A stretch of 44,304 nucleotides of DNA from a virus. Of this stretch, positions 1-44,304 are shown piece by piece. The stretch is from the IMG/VR virus record IMGVR_UViG_3300048592_000301, positions 1 to 44,304 of that record; one strand, 5' to 3'. Position 1 is the stretch's first letter; each line of letters starts with the position of its first letter. Both the position numbers and the translations under genes were made by a program. The notes beneath the pieces are model-generated. The model was given only the letters and a program-made list of their open reading frames with translations, did no database searches and was not told the origin of the DNA.

Positions 1-40
1 TTCTTCTGACAATACATTCAGCCAATATTTCGTTGTACAC

Positions 41-119
41 TTTTTTGAACATTTGTACATTATTTTGTACTTCTTTACTCATAAGTTATTGATTGTTAAT
101 TATGGCTTATATACCGTAG
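41..119 (+). other. attI-like leader of array A
   Basis: This 79-bp stretch ends at the G of the first core box (GTTATAAGCC, 119-128). It is repeated exactly at 44100-44178 through the circular overlap, and at 34690-34768 with 73 of 79 bases identical, where it heads array B. Its minus strand carries the 5' leader and first codons (MSKEVQNNVQMF) of the downstream gene. A short palindrome, GGCTTATA (104-111) against TATAAGCC (121-128), straddles the core. The position next to the first cassette is what an integron attI site would occupy; the assignment is inferred from position and duplication. Confidence 0.65.
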
Positions 120-368
120 TTATAAGCCATTTAAGTAAGATTGCACCCTTGTCCAAAAAAATGACTGAAATTGCGGTATTCCAGTTAATCTTTTTATGTG
201 TAGACAACTTATTTTAGCACTTTCAATAGCTATTTCACGCCTTTGTTCATTAGTTGTCATTATACTTTTATCATCTTCACCAATCAAATATACTATCTGA
301 TGTGCTTGATGTTCGCTGATTAATCCTTCAGCAATTTCTTTTACTTTTTCGTCTGTAATTTCTGACAT
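120..368 (-). CDS. Hypothetical protein, 82 aa (cassette C1 cargo)
   Basis: I do not recognise this protein. It is charged and soluble-looking, with a glutamate/lysine-rich helical N-terminus and no membrane segment. It is the only gene of cassette C1, the 408-bp segment missing from the second copy of this region at the right end of the window, so it is dispensable to the phage. Its TAA stop codon (120-122) is supplied by the GTTA of the array core box rather than by the cassette body. The start at 368 follows an AT-rich, Shine-Dalgarno-free leader, as usual in Bacteroidetes. The gene is transcribed leftwards into the leader and the HTH gene at 43902-44141. Confidence 0.6.
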   Translation of the reverse strand: MSEITDEKVKEIAEGLISEHQAHQIVYLIGEDDKSIMTTNEQRREIAIESAKISCLHIKRLTGIPQFQSFFWTRVQSYLNGL

Positions 369-398
369 ATCAATTTATTTTAGTTGTTAATAATAAAC

Positions 399-536
399 GG
401 CTTATAACAGCACATACCCAAAAGAGGGGTTTTAGTGGTTATATGAACATCTTCGCTTCGGTTAAACATTTGTACTATTTTGAAATTTTGTGCTTCGATT
501 TCCCCTCCTTCGGGTATCTGCAAAACGTTATAGGGC
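399..536 (+). repeat. attC-like site S1 (cassette C1)
   Basis: The left box GGCTTATAAC (399-408) is the exact reverse complement of the cassette start GTTATAAGCC (119-128). One base (A) separates it from a stem that pairs GCACATACCC with GGGTATCTGC; five bases (AAAAC) then precede the right box GTTATAGGGC (527-536). A long loop lies between the arms and contains AACATTTGTAC, shared with other sites. The right box is where the two versions of this region switch. Confidence 0.8.
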
Positions 537-538
537 AT

Positions 539-841
539 TTAACGAACCCCTATCCATTCAGCAAATGAACCTCCGAACCAATCAGCATCTAAATACTCTT
601 GATAGCGTTGTTTTGACCTGCTGTTTTTGTTTTTCGGTGGCTTTTTATTGAAAGTTTCCAAGTAAACAACTTCTGAGGTTGGATGACAAGGTAAAGGCGA
701 TTTGTCCTTTCTGTCATAAAAAGTAACTCCAATATAGTTACCCATATCTTTGGTAATTACGCCTTTTTCACCGCCAACAGTAACCTCTCTGAACATATCA
801 GCAGGTACTTTGTAATAATTTTTAATGTACTCAAATTCCAT
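539..841 (-). CDS. Hypothetical phage protein, 100 aa (cassette C2)
   Basis: Unknown function. The middle looks like a compact beta fold (residues ~25-60, containing GNYIGVTFYD), followed by a basic linker rich in Lys/Asn (PKNKNSRSKQR) and an aromatic C-terminus (DADWFGGSFAEWIG). It is the sole cargo of cassette C2 and lies upstream of C1 in the transcription direction. Its last ~38 codons recur exactly at 44190-44304 because the genome ends overlap; there the gene sits directly beside the leader, with C1 absent. The protein resembles small accessory proteins of Bacteroidetes phages, but I cannot name a family. Confidence 0.65.
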   Translation of the reverse strand: MEFEYIKNYYKVPADMFREVTVGGEKGVITKDMGNYIGVTFYDRKDKSPLPCHPTSEVVYLETFNKKPPKNKNSRSKQRYQEYLDADWFGGSFAEWIGVR

Positions 842-858
842 AATCTGAAAATAAAAAC

Positions 859-995
859 GCCCTATAACATACGCTATACAAAAGCAGGGGCGTACTGCTA
901 AAGTGAGCGTTCGTGCATCTATTTTTCATTTGTGCAAGGCTGAAAGGGAGTGCATCTTTACCCCTGCCTTCGTATAGCGTTTTACCGTTAGGCAA
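859..995 (+). repeat. attC-like site S2 (cassette C2)
   Basis: The left box GCCCTATAAC (859-868) is the exact reverse complement of the C2 start GTTATAGGGC (527-536). The stem pairs ACGCTATAC (871-879) with GTATAGCGT (972-980), and further in GCAGGGG with CCCCTGC. Spacers are asymmetric: AT on the left, TTTACC on the right. The right box is GTTAGGC (987-993). The reading frame through this site on the minus strand is open but is not counted as a gene. Confidence 0.8.
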
Positions 996-1028
996 CATTA
1001 AAACGAGCCAACACACAGGCAATCACGC

Positions 1029-1408
1029 TTGCCTAACAGCGTATTGGTTCAATATTTTAAAAAGCCTACGCAATCTTAGTTACTTTAATAATATTAGATG
1101 ATGAAACTAGCTTGTAAAACCAATTTGTAATTTTGCCAAAAACAGGGTCGTATAAATCATCATCATCATCCGTTAAGTGTCTCCATAATCTTACTGGTGG
1201 ATTATCTTCTGTTAAATAACCCTCTAATATAACATATTCTTCTACTTGAAACGGATGTCCTGTTTTTATTCCAAGTGCTTTTTCAACACAATCAATCATA
1301 TCCTCTGGCACTCCTTTTATTAAAAGTTCGTTTTTTGTTGGTACCATTTTCATTGTTTTTCCTCCTTATTTTTTAAAATACTAAACCAATACGCAAACCG
1401 TTAGTAGC
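1029..1408 (+). repeat. attC-like site S3 enclosing a gene (cassette C3)
   Basis: The left box TTGCCTAAC (1029-1037) matches the C3 start GTTAGGCAA (987-995) in reverse complement. After one A, GCGTATTGGTT (1039-1049) pairs with AACCAATACGC (1384-1394), followed by AAACC and the right box GTTAGTAGC (1400-1408). Unusually, the 95-aa gene lies entirely inside the loop. The head of C3 (996-1008) also carries CATTAAAACGAGC, which recurs as the loop of S4, hinting at an older, decayed site. Confidence 0.7.
1066..1353 (-). CDS. Hypothetical acidic protein, 95 aa (cassette C3)
   Basis: Function not recognised. The N-terminal half reads as a small alpha/beta unit (ELLIKGVPEDMIDCVEKAL), followed by a beta region and an acidic run of five Asp at about residues 62-66. 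It lies completely within the two arms of palindrome S3, so gene and site are nested. The TAG stop sits inside the motif GCCTACGCA (1064-1072 on the + strand) that also ends other cassettes. It is transcribed leftwards. The start at 1353 has AT-rich upstream DNA with a GGAGGAAAA-like stretch on the minus strand, unusual here and possibly a real ribosome site. Confidence 0.65.
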   Translation of the reverse strand: MKMVPTKNELLIKGVPEDMIDCVEKALGIKTGHPFQVEEYVILEGYLTEDNPPVRLWRHLTDDDDDLYDPVFGKITNWFYKLVSSSNIIKVTKIA

Positions 1409-1413
1409 AAGCA

Positions 1414-2115
1414 CTACATTTCGTTTTCAAATAAAGTTTTCGGTTCAAAATTTTTATTAAAATCTGCCACCGCACCACTTAATACAAATTCACTCCATTG
1501 TTTCGCCATAGCGTCTGCAACCCCTTGAAAAAACTTGCTTCTTTTTACACTGCCATTTGCAAATGTTTTTCCTTTATAGTTTGCTTTCTCCAATCTGCCA
1601 CCACCTCCATTTATGTATGGTTGGTATTCAGTAAGTATTTCAGTTGGTTGCAGCTTTGGTAATCCTTTTAGCCATAAGCAAGTTTTTTTACTAAAAGGTT
1701 CTCCAAACATATATGGTTGTATTATTTGGTCATATTTTGGCAAACCAATTACGCTCATAGGCACTGGGTTTTCAATAGCTACATATTTGCAATCTAAATT
1801 ATAAAACAACATAAAAAACTCTTTTGCTTCCATTGCTTTTTTATATCTTTCTTGGTCTATAATTCCTTTTTGTGGGTACATTCTTACTGCTCCGCCATTT
1901 GTCATATAAGTGCAAGGTGGAAAAGCAATTACAATATCCCAATGTTGTTTTAATAATTCAGTTACATCGCCTTGTGTATGCCATTCAGGATAACCACCGC
2001 TACACTCTTGTAAATCACAACTAAATGCTTCGTGTCCTAAATCTCTAAATGCTTTCGTTACTGCTTGGCTTTCCTCACAAGCTAATAATATTCTTAATTT
2101 TTTTCCTTCGCTCAT
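1414..2115 (-). CDS. C5-cytosine DNA methyltransferase-like protein (cassette C4)
   Basis: 233 aa. It likely transfers a methyl group from SAM to cytosine in DNA, protecting phage DNA from host restriction. Visible support: the catalytic-loop-like IAFPPCTYMTNGG (about residues 64-76), with the PPC nucleophile motif, and AIENPVPMSV (about 118-127), corresponding to the ENV motif of C5 enzymes. The usual N-terminal FxGxG SAM motif is replaced by LLACEESQAV, as in a compact phage group of these enzymes, and the protein is shorter than typical host enzymes because a large recognition domain is missing. It is the only gene in cassette C4. An inactive decoy or a modified-base enzyme remains possible. 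Confidence 0.75.
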   Translation of the reverse strand: MSEGKKLRILLACEESQAVTKAFRDLGHEAFSCDLQECSGGYPEWHTQGDVTELLKQHWDIVIAFPPCTYMTNGGAVRMYPQKGIIDQERYKKAMEAKEFFMLFYNLDCKYVAIENPVPMSVIGLPKYDQIIQPYMFGEPFSKKTCLWLKGLPKLQPTEILTEYQPYINGGGGRLEKANYKGKTFANGSVKRSKFFQGVADAMAKQWSEFVLSGAVADFNKNFEPKTLFENEM

Positions 2116-2174
2116 TTTAATAAAAATTTTGTTTTGTGTTTCAAATAAAGTTTTGTGCTTAATTTACCGTGCCA

Positions 2175-2232
2175 GCTACTAACACGTGCTATACGCCATT
2201 AAAACGAGCGTATAGCACCATCCGTTAGGTGC
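2175..2232 (+). repeat. attC-like site S4, compact (cassette C4)
   Basis: The clearest short site, 58 bp. The left box GCTACTAAC (2175-2183) is the exact reverse complement of the C4 start GTTAGTAGC (1400-1408). A perfect 10-bp stem, TGCTATACGC (2187-2196) and GCGTATAGCA (2208-2217), encloses an 11-base loop. Spacers are ACG and CCATCC. The right box is GTTAGGTGC (2224-2232), which fits GTTRRRY. Confidence 0.85.
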
Positions 2233-2279
2233 AATATTTTTTAATTTTTTGCCTACGCACTTTGGCTTTTGCAAAGCAA

Positions 2280-2711
2280 TTAAAAGATAACGATCATACT
2301 ATCGTGCATCGGTGCTTTATTTGTAACATATTCGCCTTTAGTATTTATTCCTAAAAATTTTATTCTACCCTTTACAAATCTTATTTCTTTTGCATTTGGT
2401 TGTATATGATCGTGAAATAATTTGGTAGATGTGCTTACTGGTAATAACATAACGCATAATTTACCCTTTTTACTTTCTTCTATTGCTTTTTTTACAAATA
2501 ATTCTTTGTTTTTTTGAGAGTATGGAGGATTTACGAAGTTAGATTTCCCCCATTCCACGATCAATCCGTTATTTTCGTCTGTAATCTCTCCAAGATGTAA
2601 AGGACAAGGATCAAAGTCAAAATTAAATTCTGCATTTAATTGATCGTAAAAATCTTTTGGGGTAGCCCAATTATCGCTATGATCTAAATTTCTATTTTTC
2701 ATTTTTATCAA
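2280..2711 (-). CDS. Phage N6-adenine DNA methyltransferase (Dam-type)
   Basis: 143 aa, the size of phage Dam-type adenine methyltransferases (PF05869-like). The N-terminal DNWATPKDFYDQL signature occupies residues 13-25, FDFDPCP follows at 31-37, and the catalytic NPPY motif is at 61-64 (NFVNPPYSQ), which positions the adenine amino group. Expected role: methylate adenine in phage DNA to escape restriction. It lies in cassette C5, downstream of and overlapping the 78-aa gene by 20 bases. The start could be the second Met, three codons in. The array thus carries both an adenine and a cytosine methylase side by side. Confidence 0.85.
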   Translation of the reverse strand: MIKMKNRNLDHSDNWATPKDFYDQLNAEFNFDFDPCPLHLGEITDENNGLIVEWGKSNFVNPPYSQKNKELFVKKAIEESKKGKLCVMLLPVSTSTKLFHDHIQPNAKEIRFVKGRIKFLGINTKGEYVTNKAPMHDSMIVIF

Positions 2712-2928
2712 TTATTTTATCCATTTTAAAAGATTCAGCATAAAAAAGTTCTCTTGATTTTCTTATATCTTTCTTAATTCTTTTTTTGCATTTTAAAACA
2801 GCATTATCACAAGCTCTTTCCATAGCATCTAAAATAGCCATCTCTAAACTTTCAGCAGGATAAATTAAATCACTTAATTTATAACTATACTCCTCAAGTG
2901 TTAATTTTAGTATTGATCTATTGTTCAT
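2692..2928 (-). CDS. Hypothetical protein, 78 aa (cassette C5)
   Basis: Unknown function. It is predicted mostly helical and rich in Lys and Glu, with a central ESLEMAILDAMERACDNA helix and a basic stretch CKKRIKKDIRKSRE, so nucleic-acid binding is possible but unproven. It is the first gene of the two-gene cassette C5, and its 3' end overlaps the start of the adenine methylase by 20 bases, suggesting coupled translation. No membrane segment or signal peptide is visible. Confidence 0.6.
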   Translation of the reverse strand: MNNRSILKLTLEEYSYKLSDLIYPAESLEMAILDAMERACDNAVLKCKKRIKKDIRKSRELFYAESFKMDKIIDKNEK

Positions 2929-3017
2929 TTTATATTTAGTTTAAAAGTTTATAATTAAGCCCCTCGCACGCCACCTTAAAAAGTAAAAAACAAACAGGGG
3001 CTTACACACATTCAACG

Positions 3018-3089
3018 CACTAACTAACATAGGCTAATGGCAAACCACGTACTAAATTTTCATGCCATTAGCCCATATACGTTAGCTTC
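3018..3089 (+). repeat. attC-like site S5 (cassette C5)
   Basis: A perfect 11-bp stem, GGCTAATGGCA (3032-3042) and TGCCATTAGCC (3063-3073), is flanked by AACTAAC (3022-3028) with spacer ATA on the left and CATATAC plus GTTAGCTTC (3081-3089) on the right. The left box region reads GCACTAACTAAC rather than the GCACCTAAC expected from the C5 start at 2224, so this boundary does not obey the complementarity rule perfectly. Confidence 0.75.
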
Positions 3090-3094
3090 AATAC

Positions 3095-3328
3095 TTAAAT
3101 TTTTTGCCACCACTTCTTACTTTTAAGTTTTTCAATTTCTTCTCTTAGTAATTTATTTTCTACTAAAACAGTTTTTAAGGCATCATCCGTACTGATAGCT
3201 TTTATTGTTGTTATAGCACCTCCGTAAGTCCAATCATATGAACTTATAATAACTGTTTTATTATTAAAAGCCTCTTTGTATTCTAACAAATTGTCGTATT
3301 CTTTTTTTTCTAATGTTACTGTTATCAT
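3095..3328 (-). CDS. Hypothetical protein, 77 aa (cassette C6)
   Basis: Unknown. An N-terminal beta segment (MITVTLEKKEYDNLLEYKEAF) is followed by a short strand region and a C-terminal leucine-rich coiled-coil-like helix ending in a basic KSKKWWQKI tail, compatible with an oligomerising accessory protein. A start ten codons upstream at 3358 is also open, but 3328 follows an A-rich leader and begins the ordered part of the protein, so I prefer it. It is the only gene in cassette C6, the last module of array A before the phage core genes. Confidence 0.55.
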   Translation of the reverse strand: MITVTLEKKEYDNLLEYKEAFNNKTVIISSYDWTYGGAITTIKAISTDDALKTVLVENKLLREEIEKLKSKKWWQKI

Positions 3329-3379
3329 ATTTATTTTGTTTAATTGTTTATAATCCAACGCTAAAAAATTTAAGTACTA

Positions 3380-3450
3380 AAGCTAACAGCACCTAAATCG
3401 CAAATTTTGTGAAGAACAAAATCAGCGTTTAGCTGCCAACCGTTATATTC
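3380..3450 (+). repeat. attC-like site S6, end of array A
   Basis: The left box AAGCTAAC (3380-3387) is the reverse complement of the C6 start GTTAGCTT (3081-3088). After one A, GCACCTAAATCGC plus AAATTTTGT pairs imperfectly with ACAAAATCAGCGTTTAGCTGC (3416-3436). CAACC then precedes the right box GTTATATTC (3442-3450). No further palindrome follows, so the array ends here. Confidence 0.78.
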
Positions 3451-3812
3451 TATAAATATCTAAGCATCCCATTTGCGGCATCTTTTATTCCAGCGGCACG
3501 TTCATTCAAAGATTTTATTTGTTTTTCAATTAACTCTTTTTCATAAGTTACAAAATAACCCCTGCTTGTTGCTATTATTGGTAAAATACCATTCTTTCGG
3601 ATATAATTAACCATTTTGCGAAGCTTCACCCCATTAACCGGGAATTGTCGTTCCATTGTTTCTAATTGATACAATGTGTTTATTATTTTGCAAAGTTCTT
3701 CGGATTTAATTGCAGATTGCCCAATTCTTTTAAACGCCTGTTCAACGTATCGAATTAACCTTAATTCATCTTGCATTAAATCCTCTGTTATTTCTTCGAA
3801 GTTTGTTATCAT
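3450..3812 (-). CDS. Winged-helix-like phage protein, 120 aa
   Basis: No confident family. The segment KLRKMVNYIRKNGILPIIATSRGYFV (about residues 64-89) looks like the recognition helix and wing of a winged-helix fold, and such proteins often sit beside recombination genes in Bacteroidetes phages. It is downstream of the HNH gene, overlapping it by four bases (ATGA), so it belongs to the recombination operon starting at 5434. A regulatory or DNA-binding role in replication and recombination is inferred from fold impression and neighbours only. Confidence 0.7.
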   Translation of the reverse strand: MITNFEEITEDLMQDELRLIRYVEQAFKRIGQSAIKSEELCKIINTLYQLETMERQFPVNGVKLRKMVNYIRKNGILPIIATSRGYFVTYEKELIEKQIKSLNERAAGIKDAANGMLRYL

Positions 3813-34549: not shown

Positions 34550-34731
34550 TCTATTATATTTTTAATTCCTTTGCAAAGCTTACCTATCCACTCTCCTGAA
34601 TATTCGGGAAAGAATACAAGGGTTACTAAGGTAACTATAACCACTAACAAAGTTAGTATCTGCGTGGTGTAGTATAGGGTTATGTATGTTCTTTTGAACA
34701 TTTGTACATTATTTTGCACTTCTTTACTCAT
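34546..34731 (-). CDS. Leader-fused membrane protein, 61 aa
   Basis: Its first 12 residues, MSKEVQNNVQMF, are identical to those of the HTH protein at 43902-44141, because both start inside copies of the 79-bp array leader. After that it is unrelated: a membrane span (residues ~22-45, TQILTLLVVIVTLVTLVFF) and a basic end. It lies directly downstream of array B in the transcription direction. The shared N-terminus looks like a by-product, or purpose, of leader duplication. Confidence 0.7.
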   Translation of the reverse strand: MSKEVQNNVQMFKRTYITLYYTTQILTLLVVIVTLVTLVFFPEYSGEWIGKLCKGIKNIIE

Positions 34732-34768
34732 AACTTATTGATTGTTAATTATGGCGTGTATACTGTAG
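34690..34768 (+). other. attI-like leader of array B
   Basis: Matches the array A leader at 73 of 79 bases and ends at the G of core box GTTACCAGC (34768-34776). The GGCTTATA half-palindrome of leader A is changed to GGCGTGTA here. The minus strand encodes MSKEVQNNVQMF. Confidence 0.65.
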
Positions 34769-34792
34769 TTACCAGCAATGCCACCGACACCG

Positions 34793-35503
34793 CTAAAACA
34801 AACGTAATTGTGATTTAAAGTCATTAAAACGCTTTTCTTGTTTCTCATAATATTCTTGGTCTATTTCAAATCCCACAAAGTTAAACCCGCCTTTATACGC
34901 TGCTATTCTACTACTTCCGCTTCCTAAATGAGTATCTAAAATCAAATCATTTGGCTTTGCGTAATTTTGTAAAATCCAATCGTAAATATTTATATGCTTT
35001 TGGCAAGGATGTATTTTGCCTTTAAATGTATAATCAACTTTCAATTTGCCGTCAAATCCATTCATATTCCCAATATCTGAAAACCGTATCATTTTACATT
35101 TGCCATCAAAAGAAGTCCATGCCAATTCAAATTCATCAAACTCTCGTTTCCCTAAATATCCAGCTTTTATAACTGATTTGTCCCAGCATATCCATTGGCG
35201 TTTTATTGGCAAATTAAAGTAGTTTCCACCCCACACAATTTGATTTTTAGACACTCTAAATAACTGCTCCCAATATTCGTCTGTTGGTCTTTCTTTGTCC
35301 CATTCAGCTATTTCAATCCCATAAGGCGGATCAACAATCGCCAAATCAAAGTGGTTATCTGCATAGCGTTTTAATGCCTTTACACAATCTTCCAAATAAA
35401 CCTCCGATGAAGGCACTGCTGGTAACACTGTATAACCGTCAATGGCGGGGTTCGTGCTTAATCCAGCGTTTGTGCTTTCTATTATGTTTTGTTCTTTATT
35501 CAT
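34793..35503 (-). CDS. DNA methyltransferase, N4/N6 class (cassette C7)
   Basis: 236 aa. Catalytic DPPYG in AIVDPPYGIEIAEWD (about residues 55-69), then WGGNYFNLP, and the C-terminal SAM-binding DTHLGSGSSRIAAYKGG plus VGFEIDQEYYE, giving motif order IV...I of beta-class amino methyltransferases. It methylates adenine or cytosine amino groups, probably against restriction. The N-terminal ~28 residues (TNPAIDGYTVLPAVPS) are encoded by the left arm of attC-like site S7; the ATG lies in its loop, so translation begins inside the recombination site. Confidence 0.88.
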   Translation of the reverse strand: MNKEQNIIESTNAGLSTNPAIDGYTVLPAVPSSEVYLEDCVKALKRYADNHFDLAIVDPPYGIEIAEWDKERPTDEYWEQLFRVSKNQIVWGGNYFNLPIKRQWICWDKSVIKAGYLGKREFDEFELAWTSFDGKCKMIRFSDIGNMNGFDGKLKVDYTFKGKIHPCQKHINIYDWILQNYAKPNDLILDTHLGSGSSRIAAYKGGFNFVGFEIDQEYYEKQEKRFNDFKSQLRLF

Positions 35504-35554
35504 ACTTTTTGCTTTTTAATCCGCCACTGCGGTTATACTTTTACGTTAGGCGTA
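35412..35554 (+). repeat. attC-like site S7 (cassette C7)
   Basis: The left box GCTGGTAAC (35418-35426) is the exact reverse complement of the C7 start GTTACCAGC; the match extends imperfectly to 15 bases. GTATAACCG plus AATGGCGG pair with CCGCCACT and CGGTTATAC. The right spacer TTTTAC leads to GTTAGGC (35545-35551). It overlaps the 5' end of the methylase gene. Confidence 0.8.
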
Positions 35555-35557
35555 ATG

Positions 35558-36385
35558 TTAGAACAGCGTTTCCGACAGACGTTTGACTGAAATATCATAA
35601 TATGCTTTTTCTTTTTCTATGCCTATAAATTGACGGTTTAACATTTGACAAGCTAAACCAGTTGTATTTGAACCCATACAATTATCTAACACTATATCAT
35701 CTTCATTTGAGTAGGTAGAAACTAAATACTCTAATAATGATAAAGGCTTTTGAGTTGGATGTAATCTAATTCCATTACAGTTTGGTACTCCTTTAAAAAA
35801 CTGTACACTTTCAGGGTATTTACCTCTTTTTAGTTCAATACCTTGCTCTCCTGCAAAAGATAAACCACCATTTATACTATTAGTACTTTTTTCTAATTGT
35901 TTACTCCTATTTACCATTTCTCCATCTTTAAACCTTTTTTTAGTGCTATCCGAATACTCTTGAAATATTGGATTGTAAGTAGGTTTATTTTTGTAAAAAA
36001 CTAAAATATTTTCGTGTCGCTTCATTGGTTGAATTTTTGAAGTTGCAAAACCACCCCCAGTATTTTTGTGCCAAATAATTTCATACCTAAATAACTTTCT
36101 ATTGCTATTTATTAAATCGGTTGTAAATGGTTGTGAAGCAAACAAAACTATTGCACCATTTTTATTTATTATTCTCTCGTATTCGTTCCACAATTTATCC
36201 AAAGGCAAAACACTATCCCATTTACAAGCGGTTGTTCCGTAAGGCAAATCACAAAGGATTAAATCAACACTTTCACTTTCTATATTTGAAAGTATATTGA
36301 AACAATCATCGTGGAACAAAACACTACGCCTAACAATGGTTTTGCAATAGTGGGGCATCTGTGCTATATTTAAACTTTTCTGCAT
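35558..36385 (-). CDS. Site-specific DNA methyltransferase, N4/N6 class (cassette C8)
   Basis: 275 aa. Catalytic LILCDLPYGTTACKWD (about residues 41-56, DLPYG form of DPPY), RRHENILVFYK-like region (KRHENILVFYKNKP), and C-terminal motif I DNCMGSNTTGLACQML followed by FIGIEKEKAYYD. The sequence RLHPTQKPLSLLEYLV is typical of beta-class phage enzymes. The first ~20 codons overlap the left arm of site S8; an alternative start is at 36358 (MPHYCK). Next to the C7 methylase, giving two tandem methylases of the same class but little similarity, so probably different target sites. Confidence 0.88.
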   Translation of the reverse strand: MQKSLNIAQMPHYCKTIVRRSVLFHDDCFNILSNIESESVDLILCDLPYGTTACKWDSVLPLDKLWNEYERIINKNGAIVLFASQPFTTDLINSNRKLFRYEIIWHKNTGGGFATSKIQPMKRHENILVFYKNKPTYNPIFQEYSDSTKKRFKDGEMVNRSKQLEKSTNSINGGLSFAGEQGIELKRGKYPESVQFFKGVPNCNGIRLHPTQKPLSLLEYLVSTYSNEDDIVLDNCMGSNTTGLACQMLNRQFIGIEKEKAYYDISVKRLSETLF

Positions 36386-36461
36386 CTATTTAACTTTTGT
36401 AATTAATTGAACATTTGTACTTTGAAGCCCCACCATCGCAAAGCCCCGAAACGTTAGCTGT
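36325..36461 (+). repeat. attC-like site S8 (cassette C8)
   Basis: The left box TACGCCTAAC (36325-36334) is the exact reverse complement of the C8 start GTTAGGCGTA (35545-35554). The stem TTTTGCAATAGTGGGGC (36340-36356) pairs with GCCCCACCATCGCAAAG (36427-36443), with mismatches. The loop holds GAACATTTGTAC. The right box is GTTAGCTGT (36453-36461). Confidence 0.78.
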
Positions 36462-36500
36462 AATTTGTTTTATTTAAAATTAAAAGCCTACGCACAAAAA

Positions 36501-36650
36501 TTACTCCTGTAAATCAATAATCACCGTTTTATAAACGCTAACCTTCGCAATTAAAGGTAGTGCTTGTTGTGCTGTCATTGTTTCAATTTGTTTTTTCATC
36601 TTCTTGATGTAGCGTTTATATTTTTCTATCAATTCTTCATTTCGTGTCAT
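36501..36650 (-). CDS. Small helical protein, 49 aa (cassette C9)
   Basis: An open frame of 49 codons with a plausible composition: Lys/Glu-rich amphipathic helix (ELIEKYKRYIKKMKKQIETM) and a short hydrophobic end. It follows the 63-aa gene closely. It may be a cytoplasmic coiled coil; function unknown. Confidence 0.45.
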   Translation of the reverse strand: MTRNEELIEKYKRYIKKMKKQIETMTAQQALPLIAKVSVYKTVIIDLQE

Positions 36651-36668
36651 AACCGTAATTTTTACTTA

Positions 36669-36860
36669 TTACTCTAATAAATATTCTATTTTCACTTGTT
36701 CTTCTAATATAATTTTGGATGCAAATTTTGCGCTCCGTATGTTTTTAGCATAAGAAACTAACGCTTCATTATTTTTCTCAATCTGCGAAATATAAGCATC
36801 TCTGTTTTCCAATAAGGATTTTAAATGATTTATTTCATCTAAACATTGTTGTTTTTTCAT
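36669..36860 (-). CDS. Hypothetical coiled-coil protein, 63 aa (cassette C9)
   Basis: Leucine/lysine-rich helix from residue 5 to 35 (LDEINHLKSLLENRDAYISQIEKNNE) suggests dimerisation. It ends in a short charged strand. It overlaps the zinc-ribbon gene upstream by four bases (ATGA), and the 49-aa frame follows, so C9 carries three or four linked tiny genes. Function unknown. Confidence 0.55.
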   Translation of the reverse strand: MKKQQCLDEINHLKSLLENRDAYISQIEKNNEALVSYAKNIRSAKFASKIILEEQVKIEYLLE

Positions 36861-37090
36861 AGTTTTTTTGTTTTAAAGTTTTCAAATGAGATTGCATCAC
36901 TCAAAGTTGTAGTAAATCCTTTTTTACATTCTTCGCATTTATACACATATTGGTTGCCACTTACAACTTTGTTTTTACTTGCAACAATATATTTTCTCAT
37001 TGGTGTAGTTACCTCAATTTTCTTGTTTCCACAAAAAGGGCAACCACCAAATGTTTTTAATTCTTCTAATATTCGTTTATCTATTTTCAT
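36857..37090 (-). CDS. Zinc-ribbon protein, Lar-like, 77 aa (cassette C9)
   Basis: CPFCG (about residues 17-21) and CEECKKG (about 52-58) make a four-cysteine zinc ribbon, the layout of Lar-like restriction-alleviation proteins and small phage transcription or DNA adapters. A Lar-like anti-restriction role would suit a cassette array rich in methylases but is inferred only from the ribbon. An upstream start at 37144 would read through the left box of site S9 and is less likely. Confidence 0.6.
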   Translation of the reverse strand: MKIDKRILEELKTFGGCPFCGNKKIEVTTPMRKYIVASKNKVVSGNQYVYKCEECKKGFTTTLSDAISFENFKTKKL

Positions 37091-37142
37091 CTCTTTTTTA
37101 ATTTTAAATAAAACAAACTTGCCTACACACCATCCAACACAC

Positions 37143-37276
37143 ACAGCTAACAGCAGATAAGAGCAAAAAAAGTAACCAGCCCTATAATAACCGCACCGTA
37201 TAACGTGAGTCTAAACCCTATAAAATCATCATTGTCTTCCATCTTTTTCTGCTCTTATCTGCAAAACGTTATGCTC
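37143..37276 (+). repeat. attC-like site S9 (cassette C9)
   Basis: The left box ACAGCTAAC (37143-37151) is the exact reverse complement of the C9 start GTTAGCTGT (36453-36461). After one A, a perfect 13-bp stem GCAGATAAGAGCA (37153-37165) with TGCTCTTATCTGC (37250-37262), then AAAAC and the right box GTTATGC (37268-37274). The loop encodes a 31-aa membrane peptide on the minus strand. Confidence 0.85.
37147..37242 (-). CDS. Possible 31-aa membrane peptide inside attC loop
   Basis: A short frame wholly inside S9: an acidic start (MEDNDDFIGFRL) and a single membrane span (LYGAVIIGLVTFFALICC). It would add a single-pass toxin-like or envelope peptide to cassette C9. No codon or promoter evidence confirms translation, and its end coincides with the stem, so chance is possible. 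Confidence 0.3.
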   Translation of the reverse strand: MEDNDDFIGFRLTLYGAVIIGLVTFFALICC

Positions 37277-37505
37277 CATTCTGTGAACGGTCAATTATCC
37301 ATATACCAAATATCAACACCGAATTGGTGGCTATTATTTTAATCATTGTTTGTGTATCAAACCAAATCAATCCTATCAATAATGGTATGTACATCATAAA
37401 TAAAAAGCCACCAATCGTCTGCACCCAATCAATGAATGAGTAAGAACGGCAGCTAACAAAGTATTGGCGTAATGCCTTTATACTTTCAATTAAACTTTTT
37501 TTCAT
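37269..37505 (-). CDS. Two-span membrane protein, 78 aa (cassette C10)
   Basis: Two hydrophobic spans (residues ~28-48, VQTIGGFLFMMYIPLLIGLIW; ~53-70, MIKIIATNSVLIFGIWII) after a basic amphipathic start. Residues ~9-23 (IKALRQYFVSCRSYS) are encoded by the left arm of site S10, and the ATG lies in its loop. The TAA stop is the GTTA core of the preceding boundary (37268-37271). A superinfection-exclusion or holin-like role is possible. Confidence 0.55.
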   Translation of the reverse strand: MKKSLIESIKALRQYFVSCRSYSFIDWVQTIGGFLFMMYIPLLIGLIWFDTQTMIKIIATNSVLIFGIWIIDRSQNGA

Positions 37506-37573
37506 AATTTCAAATTTTGTATTTCAATTAAACTTTTCGTTAGGCACTACGCCAATACTCGACCGTTATAACC
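37451..37573 (+). repeat. attC-like site S10 (cassette C10)
   Basis: AGCTAAC (37451-37457), spacer AAA, then GTATTGGCGTAATGCC (37461-37476) pairing with GGCACTACGCCAATAC (37543-37558), spacer TCGACC and right box GTTATAACC (37565-37573). The left box does not complement the C10 start GTTATGCTC (37268), one of three such failures; a relic GTTAGGC also lies in the loop at 37539-37545. Confidence 0.72.
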
Positions 37574-37652
37574 AATAGGGGTGGACTGCTCCGAATTAAC
37601 TTTATCGTTCAAAAAATTAAAACAAAAAAGCCCACCCACAATGATTAAATGA

Positions 37653-38423
37653 TTATTGAACGTTCTTAAAAAATGTTGGTGAACTTCCGTAAAGCGGTGT
37701 TTTACCATCCCATTTCTCAATGAATTGTTGCTGAATTAGCATAGGAGTAAGTGATTGCTGCTTTAACTCATTAGCTTTCTTTTCTGCCTCTGCTTGAACA
37801 ATCATTTTCTTTGCTTGTGCTTCAACTAATCGCAATTCATTTTCCACTTTCATAGCTTCTTGAACCGCTTTGTTTTTTGAATTTACTGCATCTACAATAG
37901 TTTGCGGATATTGTAAGCCGCTTGTAAGTTGTTCAAGTTTAAATCCCTCTTTGTCCAATACCTCTGAAAGTGTTTTTTGAACATCGTTTTCAAACTTTTC
38001 TCTATTACTTACAATTTCATCAGTAGTGTATTTGTTCATCTGTAATCTGAACGCATCTTTTACATAGTTCAAAATTGTGGTTTTGCTAACTTCCTCTAAA
38101 TTCTTTCTGTATTTAGTAAAAATCTTTGGGGAGTTTCCAGATACAATATTGAAGGAAAGTGTAGGGTCAACAGAAAAGCTGCTTCCATCTTTTGCATTTA
38201 CTCCGAATGCTTCATAATCCACGGTTTGAACGAATGTGGCGTATTGTTCTACATCTTCTGTCCAAGGGTTATACCATACACGCCCAGTTACAAGTGATAC
38301 ATCTTGAACACCTTTGTCCGTTCCGTATTGTTTGATTAAAATACCCTCGTGTCCTGCATCAATTCTTGTGCAGCTTGCTAATGTGGCTAATGCCAATCCG
38401 AATAATACAATTTGCTTTTTCAT
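37653..38423 (-). CDS. SPFH/prohibitin-like lipoprotein (cassette C11)
   Basis: 256 aa. Lipobox LATLASC (Cys18 lipidated), then GHEGILIKQYGTDKGVQ and a beta-rich band-7 (SPFH) domain (residues ~25-125) ending in a long coiled coil (residues ~175-240, VQEAMKVENELRLVEAQAKKMIVQAEAEKK). Prohibitin-like proteins form rings on membranes and regulate proteases or host envelope processes. Phage copies occur in Bacteroidetes phages but their role is unclear; in a cassette, superinfection exclusion or envelope protection is a natural guess. It overlaps the 66-aa membrane gene by four bases. Confidence 0.82.
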   Translation of the reverse strand: MKKQIVLFGLALATLASCTRIDAGHEGILIKQYGTDKGVQDVSLVTGRVWYNPWTEDVEQYATFVQTVDYEAFGVNAKDGSSFSVDPTLSFNIVSGNSPKIFTKYRKNLEEVSKTTILNYVKDAFRLQMNKYTTDEIVSNREKFENDVQKTLSEVLDKEGFKLEQLTSGLQYPQTIVDAVNSKNKAVQEAMKVENELRLVEAQAKKMIVQAEAEKKANELKQQSLTPMLIQQQFIEKWDGKTPLYGSSPTFFKNVQ

Positions 38424-38620
38424 TTTGTTCTTTGTTTAAATTGTTTTTGAATTAATTTGATTAAATAAAGGTTGCCTACTAAAGCAGCACAAACAAGTGT
38501 TACACCTGCTATTACTGCCATATCAGAAGGTTGCCGCAACAATTCTGCAATCCAACTGAATAACATTATTTCAACCAACAGAATAATTGGTGAAATGAAA
38601 AGAATGATTTTTTTTCCCAT
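38420..38620 (-). CDS. Two-span membrane protein, 66 aa (cassette C11)
   Basis: Two spans (residues ~4-26, KIILFISPIILLVEIMLFSWI; ~34-56, MAVIAGVTLVCAALVGNLYLI) and a basic tail. It is translated just before the SPFH lipoprotein, with a four-base ATGA overlap, so the two are likely a functional unit. Partner membrane proteins are common next to SPFH genes in bacteria. Confidence 0.65.
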   Translation of the reverse strand: MGKKIILFISPIILLVEIMLFSWIAELLRQPSDMAVIAGVTLVCAALVGNLYLIKLIQKQFKQRTK

Positions 38621-38685
38621 CGCTTTTTTTGTTTTAATTTTTTGTTTCGTTCTCCGATTAAAATTACTATTGAAAAATCCCTACT

Positions 38686-38821
38686 GGTTATAACAGCACC
38701 TAACCAAAAGCGGGGGTTCTCTGCCTCGTAAAAACATTTGTGGTATATTGAAATTCATTGCTTCGTATTAAATTTTGTGGTACAAATCCCCGCCTTCGGT
38801 TAGCTGCAAAACGTTGCCAGC
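38686..38821 (+). repeat. attC-like site S12 (cassette C11)
   Basis: The left box GGTTATAAC (38686-38694) is the exact reverse complement of the C11 start GTTATAACC (37565-37573). After A, GCACCTAACC (38696-38705) pairs with GGTTAGCTGC (38798-38807) with one mismatch, then AAAAC and GTTGCCAGC (38813-38821). The loop shares AACATTTGT with S1 and S8, and GCGGGG pairs with CCCCGC inside it. Confidence 0.8.
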
Positions 38822-38825
38822 AATA

Positions 38826-39152
38826 CTACCGAAGTAGCTTAACGAAAAACGGCATTGTGTTCTTTGTATTCCAAGCATCAATAATATCCCCGTTTTCGGC
38901 TTTTAGTTTTGTTTCATTATTATCTTTTATTACAATATATCTGTGTCCGTACTTTAAACATTCACTACCAAATCCACCAAAGGCGCAAACTAAAATATCG
39001 CCATATTCAACATCTGTGTTCCAGTTGCCGTTTTTATCATATTTCGGGTGTTCGTGAATAAATCCTCGTATTTTTAAACCCGTACTGCCACTAACAACAG
39101 GTATATTTAATGCCTGTACTTCTGCGGTTTTTAAGTTTTCTGCTTCTTTCAT
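38826..39152 (-). CDS. Hypothetical protein, 108 aa (cassette C12)
   Basis: Beta-rich protein (GLKIRGFIHEHPKYDKNG; YRHIYIVIKDN-like GHRYIVIKDNNETKLKAENG) resembling a small peptidase-fold or SH3-like domain (YGDILVCAFGGFG). The first ~18 residues are encoded by the arm of S13, and the start lies in its loop. Function not recognised; a LexA/S24-type lid was considered because of the DILVC motif, but no catalytic Ser/Lys pair is clear. Confidence 0.55.
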   Translation of the reverse strand: MKEAENLKTAEVQALNIPVVSGSTGLKIRGFIHEHPKYDKNGNWNTDVEYGDILVCAFGGFGSECLKYGHRYIVIKDNNETKLKAENGDIIDAWNTKNTMPFFVKLLR

Positions 39153-39222
39153 AATTTCTACTATTTTGATAAGTTTGTACTATTAAGTCAGGCACTAAAA
39201 TATACCTGCGTAACGTTAGCGG
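39086..39222 (+). repeat. attC-like site S13 (cassette C12)
   Basis: CACTAAC (39089-39095), AA, CAGGTATATTTAATGCCTG (39098-39116) pairing with CAGGCACTAAAATATACCTG (39189-39208), CGTAAC, and right box GTTAGCGG (39215-39222). The left box does not complement the C12 start GTTGCCAGC, so this junction may be a hybrid. Confidence 0.72.
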
Positions 39223-39225
39223 TAA

Positions 39226-39471
39226 TTAAAATGCACAATCTTTGCACCTCATATTACCATCTTTCGCTATAATTAATTCTTCATATTCATAACCACATGA
39301 GCAGCATTTTAACATGCCGCTAACAGCACCTATGCGAAATTTTTTAACCTCGCTTAGTACTATATCTAAAGCCTCTGTCAATTTTTTAGGTTCGTGAATC
39401 ATATCTTCTCTTTTACCAAGCCTCCATTCTTGATGGTATTCAAGTATTTCAATTGCTGTTTGTAATTCCAT
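39226..39471 (-). CDS. Phage helical domain plus zinc ribbon, 81 aa (cassette C13)
   Basis: The first ~45 residues (LQTAIEILEYHQEWRLG; EALDIVLSEVKK) are a helical module common in Bacteroidetes phages. The last ~30 form a zinc ribbon (CCSCGYEYEE; MRCKDC). The joint between the two (FRIGAVSGMLKC) is encoded by the left arm of site S14, so the recombination site runs through the coding frame and looks like a domain-fusion point. Function unknown; DNA or RNA binding is possible. Confidence 0.6.
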   Translation of the reverse strand: MELQTAIEILEYHQEWRLGKREDMIHEPKKLTEALDIVLSEVKKFRIGAVSGMLKCCSCGYEYEELIIAKDGNMRCKDCAF

Positions 39472-42338: not shown

Positions 42339-43902
42339 ATTCCATTTTTTTGATGTAAGTTAATAATTCTTCTTTTGTTAGTGATTTTATTAGTTCAAAT
42401 TCTTGTTCGTTTTTCTTAAAATATTCATGTCTGGTTAAGCTGTCTTTCCCTCTGTGATGGTCGATATGATAAATCATTCCAGGAATTCGTTTAACTTTAA
42501 ACCCAGCTTTTGTGAATCTTTCCATTCTTTCCGTATCTTCCGGCCCATAACTTATAAATTTAGTATTCTCACCTCCACCCCGAAAAAATGATTCTTTATT
42601 AAAAAATATAGAACCCCCAACACTTTTTAAATCATCTTTATGAGTTCCTGGCCATTGTTGATACGCTAAACATCCGACATCAAGTCTATTTTGTAACGTA
42701 ATAAAATTACTTCGTGAAACACGGGCAAAACGCCCATCATACGGATAAACCATGTCAGCCCCAAGTTTTATAAATTCAACCGCTTTTATTATCGCCAAAG
42801 GAGGCAGAAAAACATCAGCATCGTGATTCACAATTATATCGGTTTTACTTGCCTTAGCCATTTCGTTCAACATTTTTGTTCGATGAAATAAACTTCCCTC
42901 AAAATTCATATAAGTACACCATGAACTTAAATACTCAAAATGATTTCCTCCATTTTCTCCGACAGTAATTGAACAATCAAACATTCTTAAAAGTAAAAGA
43001 ATATTTAAGTTTAGATTTTGTCTTCTATCAGAATGGTCATATTTGACCGGGATAGTGAACGTTACATTTTTTAATGAAATTCTTTTCTGTCTATGGTCGT
43101 GGGAAATCCATTCGCTCGGATAATGGTCATTCATATTTATTTGCGTAGCAAGATTCCCTTTAACATATATAGCCGGTCTAATCACTTTATTTTTATTTTT
43201 CGACAACCACGCACCCCACCATGCAAATGTTGAATTTGAAATAATAAAATCGCTGCACATTGACATCAAGCAAAGTTGTTCAATAGCAGATTCATTTTCT
43301 TTAAAATATAATCTTTTATCAGTATTATTAAACCCCCCTCCGACAATATAAAAATTATAGTAACACGAAAAATGAAGCCGACAATACTCAATATCATCCG
43401 AAAAAACAACTATATCTCTATTTTGCCAATCAGAGAAATGTTCAAATAAAGCAGTTAAATAATATTCAATCGGCAATAATTCGTAATTTGGATTATCAAC
43501 GTAATCGCCTCGTCTGATACTAATGGCGATTGGGTTTCTTCTTAAAGCATAGGAATATTTTAAATAAACTTTTTCACTATATTTTTTATTAAAACTAAGA
43601 ACTGAACGAACTTCTTTTTCGGCATCCTTGAAATATTTTTCGCTTTGAAAATATCCGAATAAGTCAACAATTCCTTTTGCTGGGATATTTAGATTATCAC
43701 AATAATGAAAATAAGGCTCTTTTAATTGCTCCATAGGTTCAATGCTCGTTTCTTTAATTTCCCAATTAAAATATTTTGAATAAACCCAAGGAGGTAATTG
43801 ACATTTATGATTGTATTTTTTTGCAATACCAATACTTGAGGCTATTTGAAACAATTGGTTTCCAAGCCTTCCGAGTTTTCCGAGTTTTGAAAATGTAATC
43901 AT
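42325..43902 (-). CDS. Fused glycosyltransferase: GT11 fucosyltransferase plus GT2-like
   Basis: 525 aa with two catalytic domains. The N-terminal ~280 residues are a GT11 alpha-1,2-fucosyltransferase: LGRLGNQLFQIAS (residues 8-20), ISIRRGDYVDNPNY (HxRRxD-like motif, about 127-140), and ISNSTFAWWGAWLSKN (about 222-237). The C-terminal ~240 are GT-A (GT2-like): DIIVNHDADVFLPP (DxD, about 375-388) and GPEDTERMERFTKAGFKVKRIPGMIYHIDHHRG with the ED motif of galactosyl/N-acetylgalactosaminyl enzymes. A bifunctional enzyme could add two sugars in sequence. It starts where the HTH gene ends. Confidence 0.9.
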   Translation of the reverse strand: MITFSKLGKLGRLGNQLFQIASSIGIAKKYNHKCQLPPWVYSKYFNWEIKETSIEPMEQLKEPYFHYCDNLNIPAKGIVDLFGYFQSEKYFKDAEKEVRSVLSFNKKYSEKVYLKYSYALRRNPIAISIRRGDYVDNPNYELLPIEYYLTALFEHFSDWQNRDIVVFSDDIEYCRLHFSCYYNFYIVGGGFNNTDKRLYFKENESAIEQLCLMSMCSDFIISNSTFAWWGAWLSKNKNKVIRPAIYVKGNLATQINMNDHYPSEWISHDHRQKRISLKNVTFTIPVKYDHSDRRQNLNLNILLLLRMFDCSITVGENGGNHFEYLSSWCTYMNFEGSLFHRTKMLNEMAKASKTDIIVNHDADVFLPPLAIIKAVEFIKLGADMVYPYDGRFARVSRSNFITLQNRLDVGCLAYQQWPGTHKDDLKSVGGSIFFNKESFFRGGGENTKFISYGPEDTERMERFTKAGFKVKRIPGMIYHIDHHRGKDSLTRHEYFKKNEQEFELIKSLTKEELLTYIKKMEYATK

Positions 43903-44141
43903 TAATAAAATTTATAATTAAGTTTAATTTCTATGTCTAACAAATCGGCATAATTTAAAAGCAATCCAACACTTATTTTTCCTTGTTCCAAATCTATTAT
44001 TTTTCTTCTATTAGTGTTTAATAATTCTGATATTAATTGTTGAGAAAAGTTAGCAGCTTTTCTTCTGACAATACATTCAGCCAATATTTCGTTGTACACT
44101 TTTTTGAACATTTGTACATTATTTTGTACTTCTTTACTCAT
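43902..44141 (-). CDS. XRE-type helix-turn-helix protein, leader-fused, 79 aa
   Basis: After the leader-encoded start MSKEVQNNVQMF, residues ~32-70 (NFSQQLISELLNTNRRKIIDLEQGKISVGLLLNYADLLDIEI) form a XRE/Cro-like helix-turn-helix. It lies directly downstream of array A in the transcription direction, so cassettes control how much leader precedes it. It could repress a nearby promoter or the array. The first ~12 residues are shared with the 61-aa membrane protein after array B. Confidence 0.75.
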   Translation of the reverse strand: MSKEVQNNVQMFKKVYNEILAECIVRRKAANFSQQLISELLNTNRRKIIDLEQGKISVGLLLNYADLLDIEIKLNYKFY

Positions 44142-44304
44142 AAGTTATTGATTGTTAATTATGGCTTATATACCGTAGTTATAGGGCATTTAACGAACCC
44201 CTATCCATTCAGCAAATGAACCTCCGAACCAATCAGCATCTAAATACTCTTGATAGCGTTGTTTTGACCTGCTGTTTTTGTTTTTCGGTGGCTTTTTATT
44301 GAAA
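44060..44304. repeat. Terminal overlap (right copy), cassette C1 absent
   Basis: 44060-44183 equals 1-124 and 44184-44304 equals 533-653. The join falls within GTTATA (44178-44183). The 408 bases of C1 are missing here, leaving the 100-aa gene of C2 directly next to the leader. The window ends inside that gene. Confidence 0.93.

Follow-up and report, generated by a model that had tools for sequence, protein, structure and literature searches.

A 44,304-bp tailed phage of Bacteroidota, assembled as a circle (IMG/VR record IMGVR_UViG_3300048592_000301; the whole of this stretch is referred to here as the window), carries two arrays of small exchangeable gene cassettes (119-3441 and 34768-39215+), and one cassette is captured both present and absent at the exact point of exchange. 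The two arrays each start at a homologous leader, and their sites belong to an integron-like class that is widespread in Bacteroidota and their phages. We consider integron-style gain or loss of a single cassette at the leader-proximal position, by a tyrosine recombinase acting in trans, to be the best explanation (probability roughly 0.8), although the cassette-absent form rests on one contig end without read data and the acting enzyme is inferred. Cassette arrays without an integrase (CALINs) are already known from virulent phages (PMC9892861). In contrast, neither this recombinase/site class nor the orientation rule described below was found in the papers searched, which included no preprints and few subscription papers, such that priority is not established.

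Two states of one locus at the ends of the window

Window positions 1-653 and 44060-44304 share a 124-base prefix and a 127-base suffix, and the right copy (245 bases) lacks exactly 408 bases. The only ambiguity in the break is a shared 6-base core, GTTATA (119-124 = 527-532), which places the missing block, cassette C1, at 119-526 (at most 125-532). C1 contains an 82-amino-acid (aa) open reading frame (ORF) on the minus strand (120-368), of unknown function and without a Pfam, PHROGs, or phage match, together with the first attC-like site, S1 (399-526; 399-533 with the following bases). The block starts with GTTATAAGCC and ends with its reverse complement, GGCTTATAAC, followed by a hairpin, as an integron cassette does. 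The preliminary description had reported this difference and read it as integron-type excision or insertion at the first array position, suggesting an array that is mobile in the sampled population; the observation is confirmed, and the interpretation is supported at the level of sequence. However, it requires three corrections: the phage encodes no tyrosine recombinase of its own, the sites and their probable recombinase are not of the canonical IntI type, and the cassette genes run against the cassette direction.

Leader 1 (82-124, plus strand; GGCTTATATACCGTA/GTTATA) is an attI-like site lying 5′ of array 1 in the cassette direction. A second copy without C1 downstream is found at 44141-44183, where, at the right end (44060-44304), the leader is joined directly to cassette C2. 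The right-hand leader is identical to leader 1 over 124 bp and differs from the 91% identical copy at 34692-34779, indicating that the join is not a chimera of the two leaders. Among 4,183 pairs of identical 6-mers lying 50 to 3,000 bp apart within positions 1-3500, only 3 join two cassette boundaries, and a chance microhomology deletion would thus rarely land there. The 127-base suffix would fit a final assembly k of 127, and it is likely that the sampled population held both leader-C1-C2 and leader-C2 and that assembly left one form at each contig end.

Near-identical IMG/VR phages show the same kind of event at the same position. Two contigs (L073 and L127; L numbers are our labels for the sequence stretches compared) are identical in the compared blocks, but L127 has a 639-bp cassette exactly at the leader (...AGCGAGTA/GTTA) and a 1,002-bp internal one. 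Contigs L050 and L072 (99.96% identity) have different first cassettes at TTATACAGTA/GTTA, while L057 and L136 carry 98.8 to 100% identical cassettes in changed order. An exact leader pattern found nothing in IMG/VR, the C1 and C2 proteins gave no relatives there, C1 gave none among isolated phages, and leader 2 had no match in the phage with the nearest terminase.

Anatomy of the two arrays

On the plus strand, each unit begins with GTT and ends with the reverse complement of its own start, then a hairpin, and then the GTT of the next unit, with the ends matching over 8 to 10 bases for units starting at 119, 527, 987, 1400, 3081, 34768, 35545, 36453, 37565, and 39215. The missing block is one such unit, which places the cut at G/TT on the plus strand and sets the cassette direction from left to right, whereas every cassette gene lies on the minus strand. 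In array 1, C1 is followed by C2 (527-986; 100-aa ORF at 539-841, attC at 859-986) and C3 (987-1399), whose 95-aa ORF (1066-1353) lies entirely inside the loop of its own long attC (arms at 1039-1063 and 1370-1394, within 1029-1406). C4 (1400-2223) contains a DNA methyltransferase (1414-2115) and an attC at 2175-2223, and C5 (2224-3080) contains a Dam methyltransferase (2280-2711), a 78-aa ORF (2692-2928), and an attC at 3015-3080. C6 (3081-3441; 87-aa ORF at 3095-3358) carries the last recognized attC of array 1 (3380-3441).

Array 2 starts at leader 2 (34692-34771, plus strand; GGCGTGTATACTGTA/GTTA), also attI-like. Cassette T1 (34768-35544) encodes an N6_N4 methyltransferase (34793-35503) whose start codon lies inside the loop of its attC (35417-35544), and the first ~220 bp of T1 are 88% identical to a cassette of phage contig L060 from the same boundary. 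T2 (35545-36452) encodes a second N6_N4 methyltransferase (35558-36385; attC at 36325-36452), and T3 (36453-37267) contains small ORFs and an attC at 37143-37267. T4 (37268-37564; 78-aa ORF at 37269-37505, attC at 37450-37564) is followed by T5 (37565-38812), with a Band_7/SPFH protein (37653-38423), a 66-aa ORF, and an attC at 38685-38812, and T6 (38813-39214; 108-aa ORF at 38826-39152, attC at 39089-39214). Some of these sites are irregular: the R″ sequences of T4 and T6 do not match their own cassette starts, and array 2 trails into the start and R″ of a further, incomplete or nested cassette, T7 (39215-39324; 81-aa ORF at 39226-39471), so that its end is not resolved. Both leader regions (43-130 and 34692-34779) include the start of a small ORF with the same first residues (MSKEVQNNVQMFK) but different C termini, and the one at 43902-44141 is a weak HTH match. 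A recurring AACATTTGTAC-type motif in the leaders and attC loops (49-59, 467-477, and 34698-34708, and in attC loops of other phages) is possibly a promoter or operator.

Site class, linked recombinases, and cassette orientation

A pattern taken from window sites hit 41 stretches in a collection of 84,980 species genomes, nearly all named Bacteroidota, Chlorobi, or Ignavibacteria, and 98 stretches in IMG/VR. Stem scanning showed a constant offset, with the spacer on the R″ side about four bases shorter than that on the R′ side (offset of 3 to 5 in 70 of 81 bacterial and 133 of 144 viral sites), although a mild selection effect of the search motif is possible. The offset of canonical attC sites is probably near 0, but too few sites were found on a Shewanella prophage to measure it cleanly. 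Cassette ends were self-complementary over ≥8 nt in 91 of 109 phage and 54 of 80 bacterial sites, compared to 18 of 209 random AAC positions. In 105 unique sites selected by the end motif alone, 12 further stem columns were 72 to 80% Watson-Crick, and mismatches were A·C on the top strand, hence G·T wobbles on the bottom strand, in 160 cases against 15 (P = 8e-32); we rely on this set since an earlier covariation count used sites chosen by stem score and is partly by construction. S1 folds at −16.2 kcal/mol on the bottom strand and −8.5 kcal/mol on the top strand, and structure and wobble bias favor the bottom strand. A covariance model (R2) built from 42 sites outside the window, with the structure given by hand, found 11 sites in the window, all in the two arrays and all on one strand (S1, 97.5 bits). 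At E ≤ 1e-3, R2 matched 109 of 198 Bacteroidota genomes.

None of 25 genomes carrying the sites reached the IntI cutoff. The best matches instead form a family with an XerA-like core that scores at most 245 bits against the TIGR02249 cutoff of 265, leaves IntI positions 180-237 unmatched, and lacks the IntI-specific I2 region, while a true IntI matches the same model in one piece with 394 bits. The core domain scores near or above the cutoff of NF040815 ("site-specific tyrosine recombinase/integron integrase"). At E ≤ 1e-60, the family was found in 71 of the same 198 genomes, of which 66 have the sites, against 43 of the other 127 (P = 3.6e-17; Fisher's test); 43 of 198 genomes have sites without a family member at this threshold. 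R2 found 117 sites in 40 recombinase neighborhoods and none in 18 random stretches of such genomes. Two layouts occur: a longer form (mostly 345 to 390 aa) with an N-terminal domain without a Pfam match, on the same strand as the array (stretches L327-L343), and a shorter form (mostly 246 to 308 aa), usually on the opposite strand. Both, with phage forms, stand apart from Bacteroidota XerC/XerD in a phylogenetic tree; a single long-branched IntI falls among them, and its placement is not interpreted. A Chryseobacterium plasmid (NZ_CP041688.1) shows a recombinase followed by five R2 sites with annotated cassettes (Crp/Fnr, RidA, and metallophosphoesterase), interrupted by IS110 and a group II intron.

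Cassette ORFs read with the attC direction in bacteria (119:9 over 83 contigs) but against it in IMG/VR contigs (2:108; 52 of 54 contigs wholly antisense), as in the window (0:6). Some of the bacterial exceptions are the two ends (L012 and L031) of a 36.7-kb contig (JADBXZ010000137.1) from a Bacteroidetes MAG, with antisense genes and a leader very like that of the window, which is probably a phage binned in a MAG. Phage cassettes are also shorter (median of 382 bp, compared to 997 bp in bacteria). A PF03237 terminase search was too narrow to show phage identity, but with PHROGs hallmarks, portal, terminase, helicase, or primase genes were found in the same stretches for several of these contigs. 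Judged by eye, leaders of phage and bacterial arrays look alike. The simplest reading is that phages hold a separate cassette pool locked to the phage operon direction, but this is an inference.

Alternative explanations and relation to known systems

Under the favored explanation, a recombinase supplied by the host or a coinfecting phage joins the leader (about TATAC-n-GTA/GTTA) to the R′ end (G/TT) of a cassette's attC, folded as a bottom-strand hairpin, and so inserts or removes single cassettes at the first position. That the linked family performs this chemistry is inferred, and no member is present in this phage. An ordinary host IntI acting on these sites, with the linked family only a neighbor, is an unlikely alternative. 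In its favor, IntI1 recombines phage attC sites, including one of Polaribacter phage P12002L (PMC9892861), which has comparable sites beside methyltransferases in the same gene neighborhood (HNH, YqaJ-like, and Rad52-like genes) as array 1, although R2 does not detect these short sites. However, the absence of an above-cutoff IntI in the 25 genomes, the unmatched positions 180-237, and the tight linkage of sites to the recombinase family all argue against it, as does the reported near absence of complete integrons in Bacteroidetes (PMC9024848). An assembly or library chimera is less likely still. Contig ends are where assembly errors gather, and only one contig shows the join, but the join falls exactly on a cassette boundary and next to leader 1, 6 bp is far too short to join contigs in a k-mer assembler, and the same class of difference is seen between other near-identical contigs. 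Finally, RecA-independent slippage between the two GTTATA copies is improbable, since exactly one cassette with its own attC is removed from the leader, and similar changes occur at leaders of other phages where the shared core is only GTTA and where cassettes are gained or permuted, not only lost.

The arrays share with integrons one attC at the 3′ end of each cassette, R″/R′ ends of the form RYYYAAC...GTTRRRY, and, by comparative sequence only, a cut at G/TT and leader-proximal gain and loss; in bacteria, a recombinase gene lies beside the array. They differ in that the linked recombinase falls below the TIGR02249 cutoff and lacks the I2 region, in that many bacterial recombinases are codirectional with the array, and in that phage genes are antisense to attC. 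With its 11 modeled sites and no tyrosine recombinase, the window fits a phage CALIN, as in P12002L, which likewise has an attC array without intI and methyltransferase cassettes (two methyltransferases). However, the study of phage CALINs reports neither cassette-present and -absent states within one phage nor a dedicated recombinase family nor the antisense rule (PMC9892861). The array-linked recombinases resemble XerA-like enzymes in their core domain, but the longer form adds the N-terminal domain noted above. In Riemerella anatipestifer, a Bacteroidota host, aph(3′)-IVb with a 140-bp attC-like 3′ stem-loop was reported in 2026 to integrate without homology, with the mechanism left open (PMC13148043), and it is possible that this capture reflects the same system.

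Although complete integrons are reported as very rare in Bacteroidota, this site class is present in over half of 198 sampled species and is tied to recombinases without the I2 helix that is credited with single-strand recombination by IntI (PMC7790495), which makes the origin of integron recombination directly testable. Tentatively, Bacteroidota and their phages might share a cassette-exchange system of their own, in which I2-less recombinases act on bottom-strand attC hairpins of +4 geometry, phages keep an orientation-reversed pool swapped at attI-like sites, and some phages carry the recombinase themselves; such a system could be the lineage from which, or beside which, classical IntI arose. 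Antisense cassettes and first-position swaps in phages point to a gene exchange route among viruses that is rich in DNA methyltransferases (four in the window), which probably counter host restriction. Some array-bearing viral contigs do carry the recombinase (L057, L076, L141, and L201), and in L057, L076, and L201 it lies beside arrays. Two of these, L201 (with L066, L059, and L138; IMGVR_UViG_3300043411_001575, 169,658 bp) and L076 (310,542 bp), are large phage-like contigs with long arrays and are apparently complete integron-like elements on viruses.
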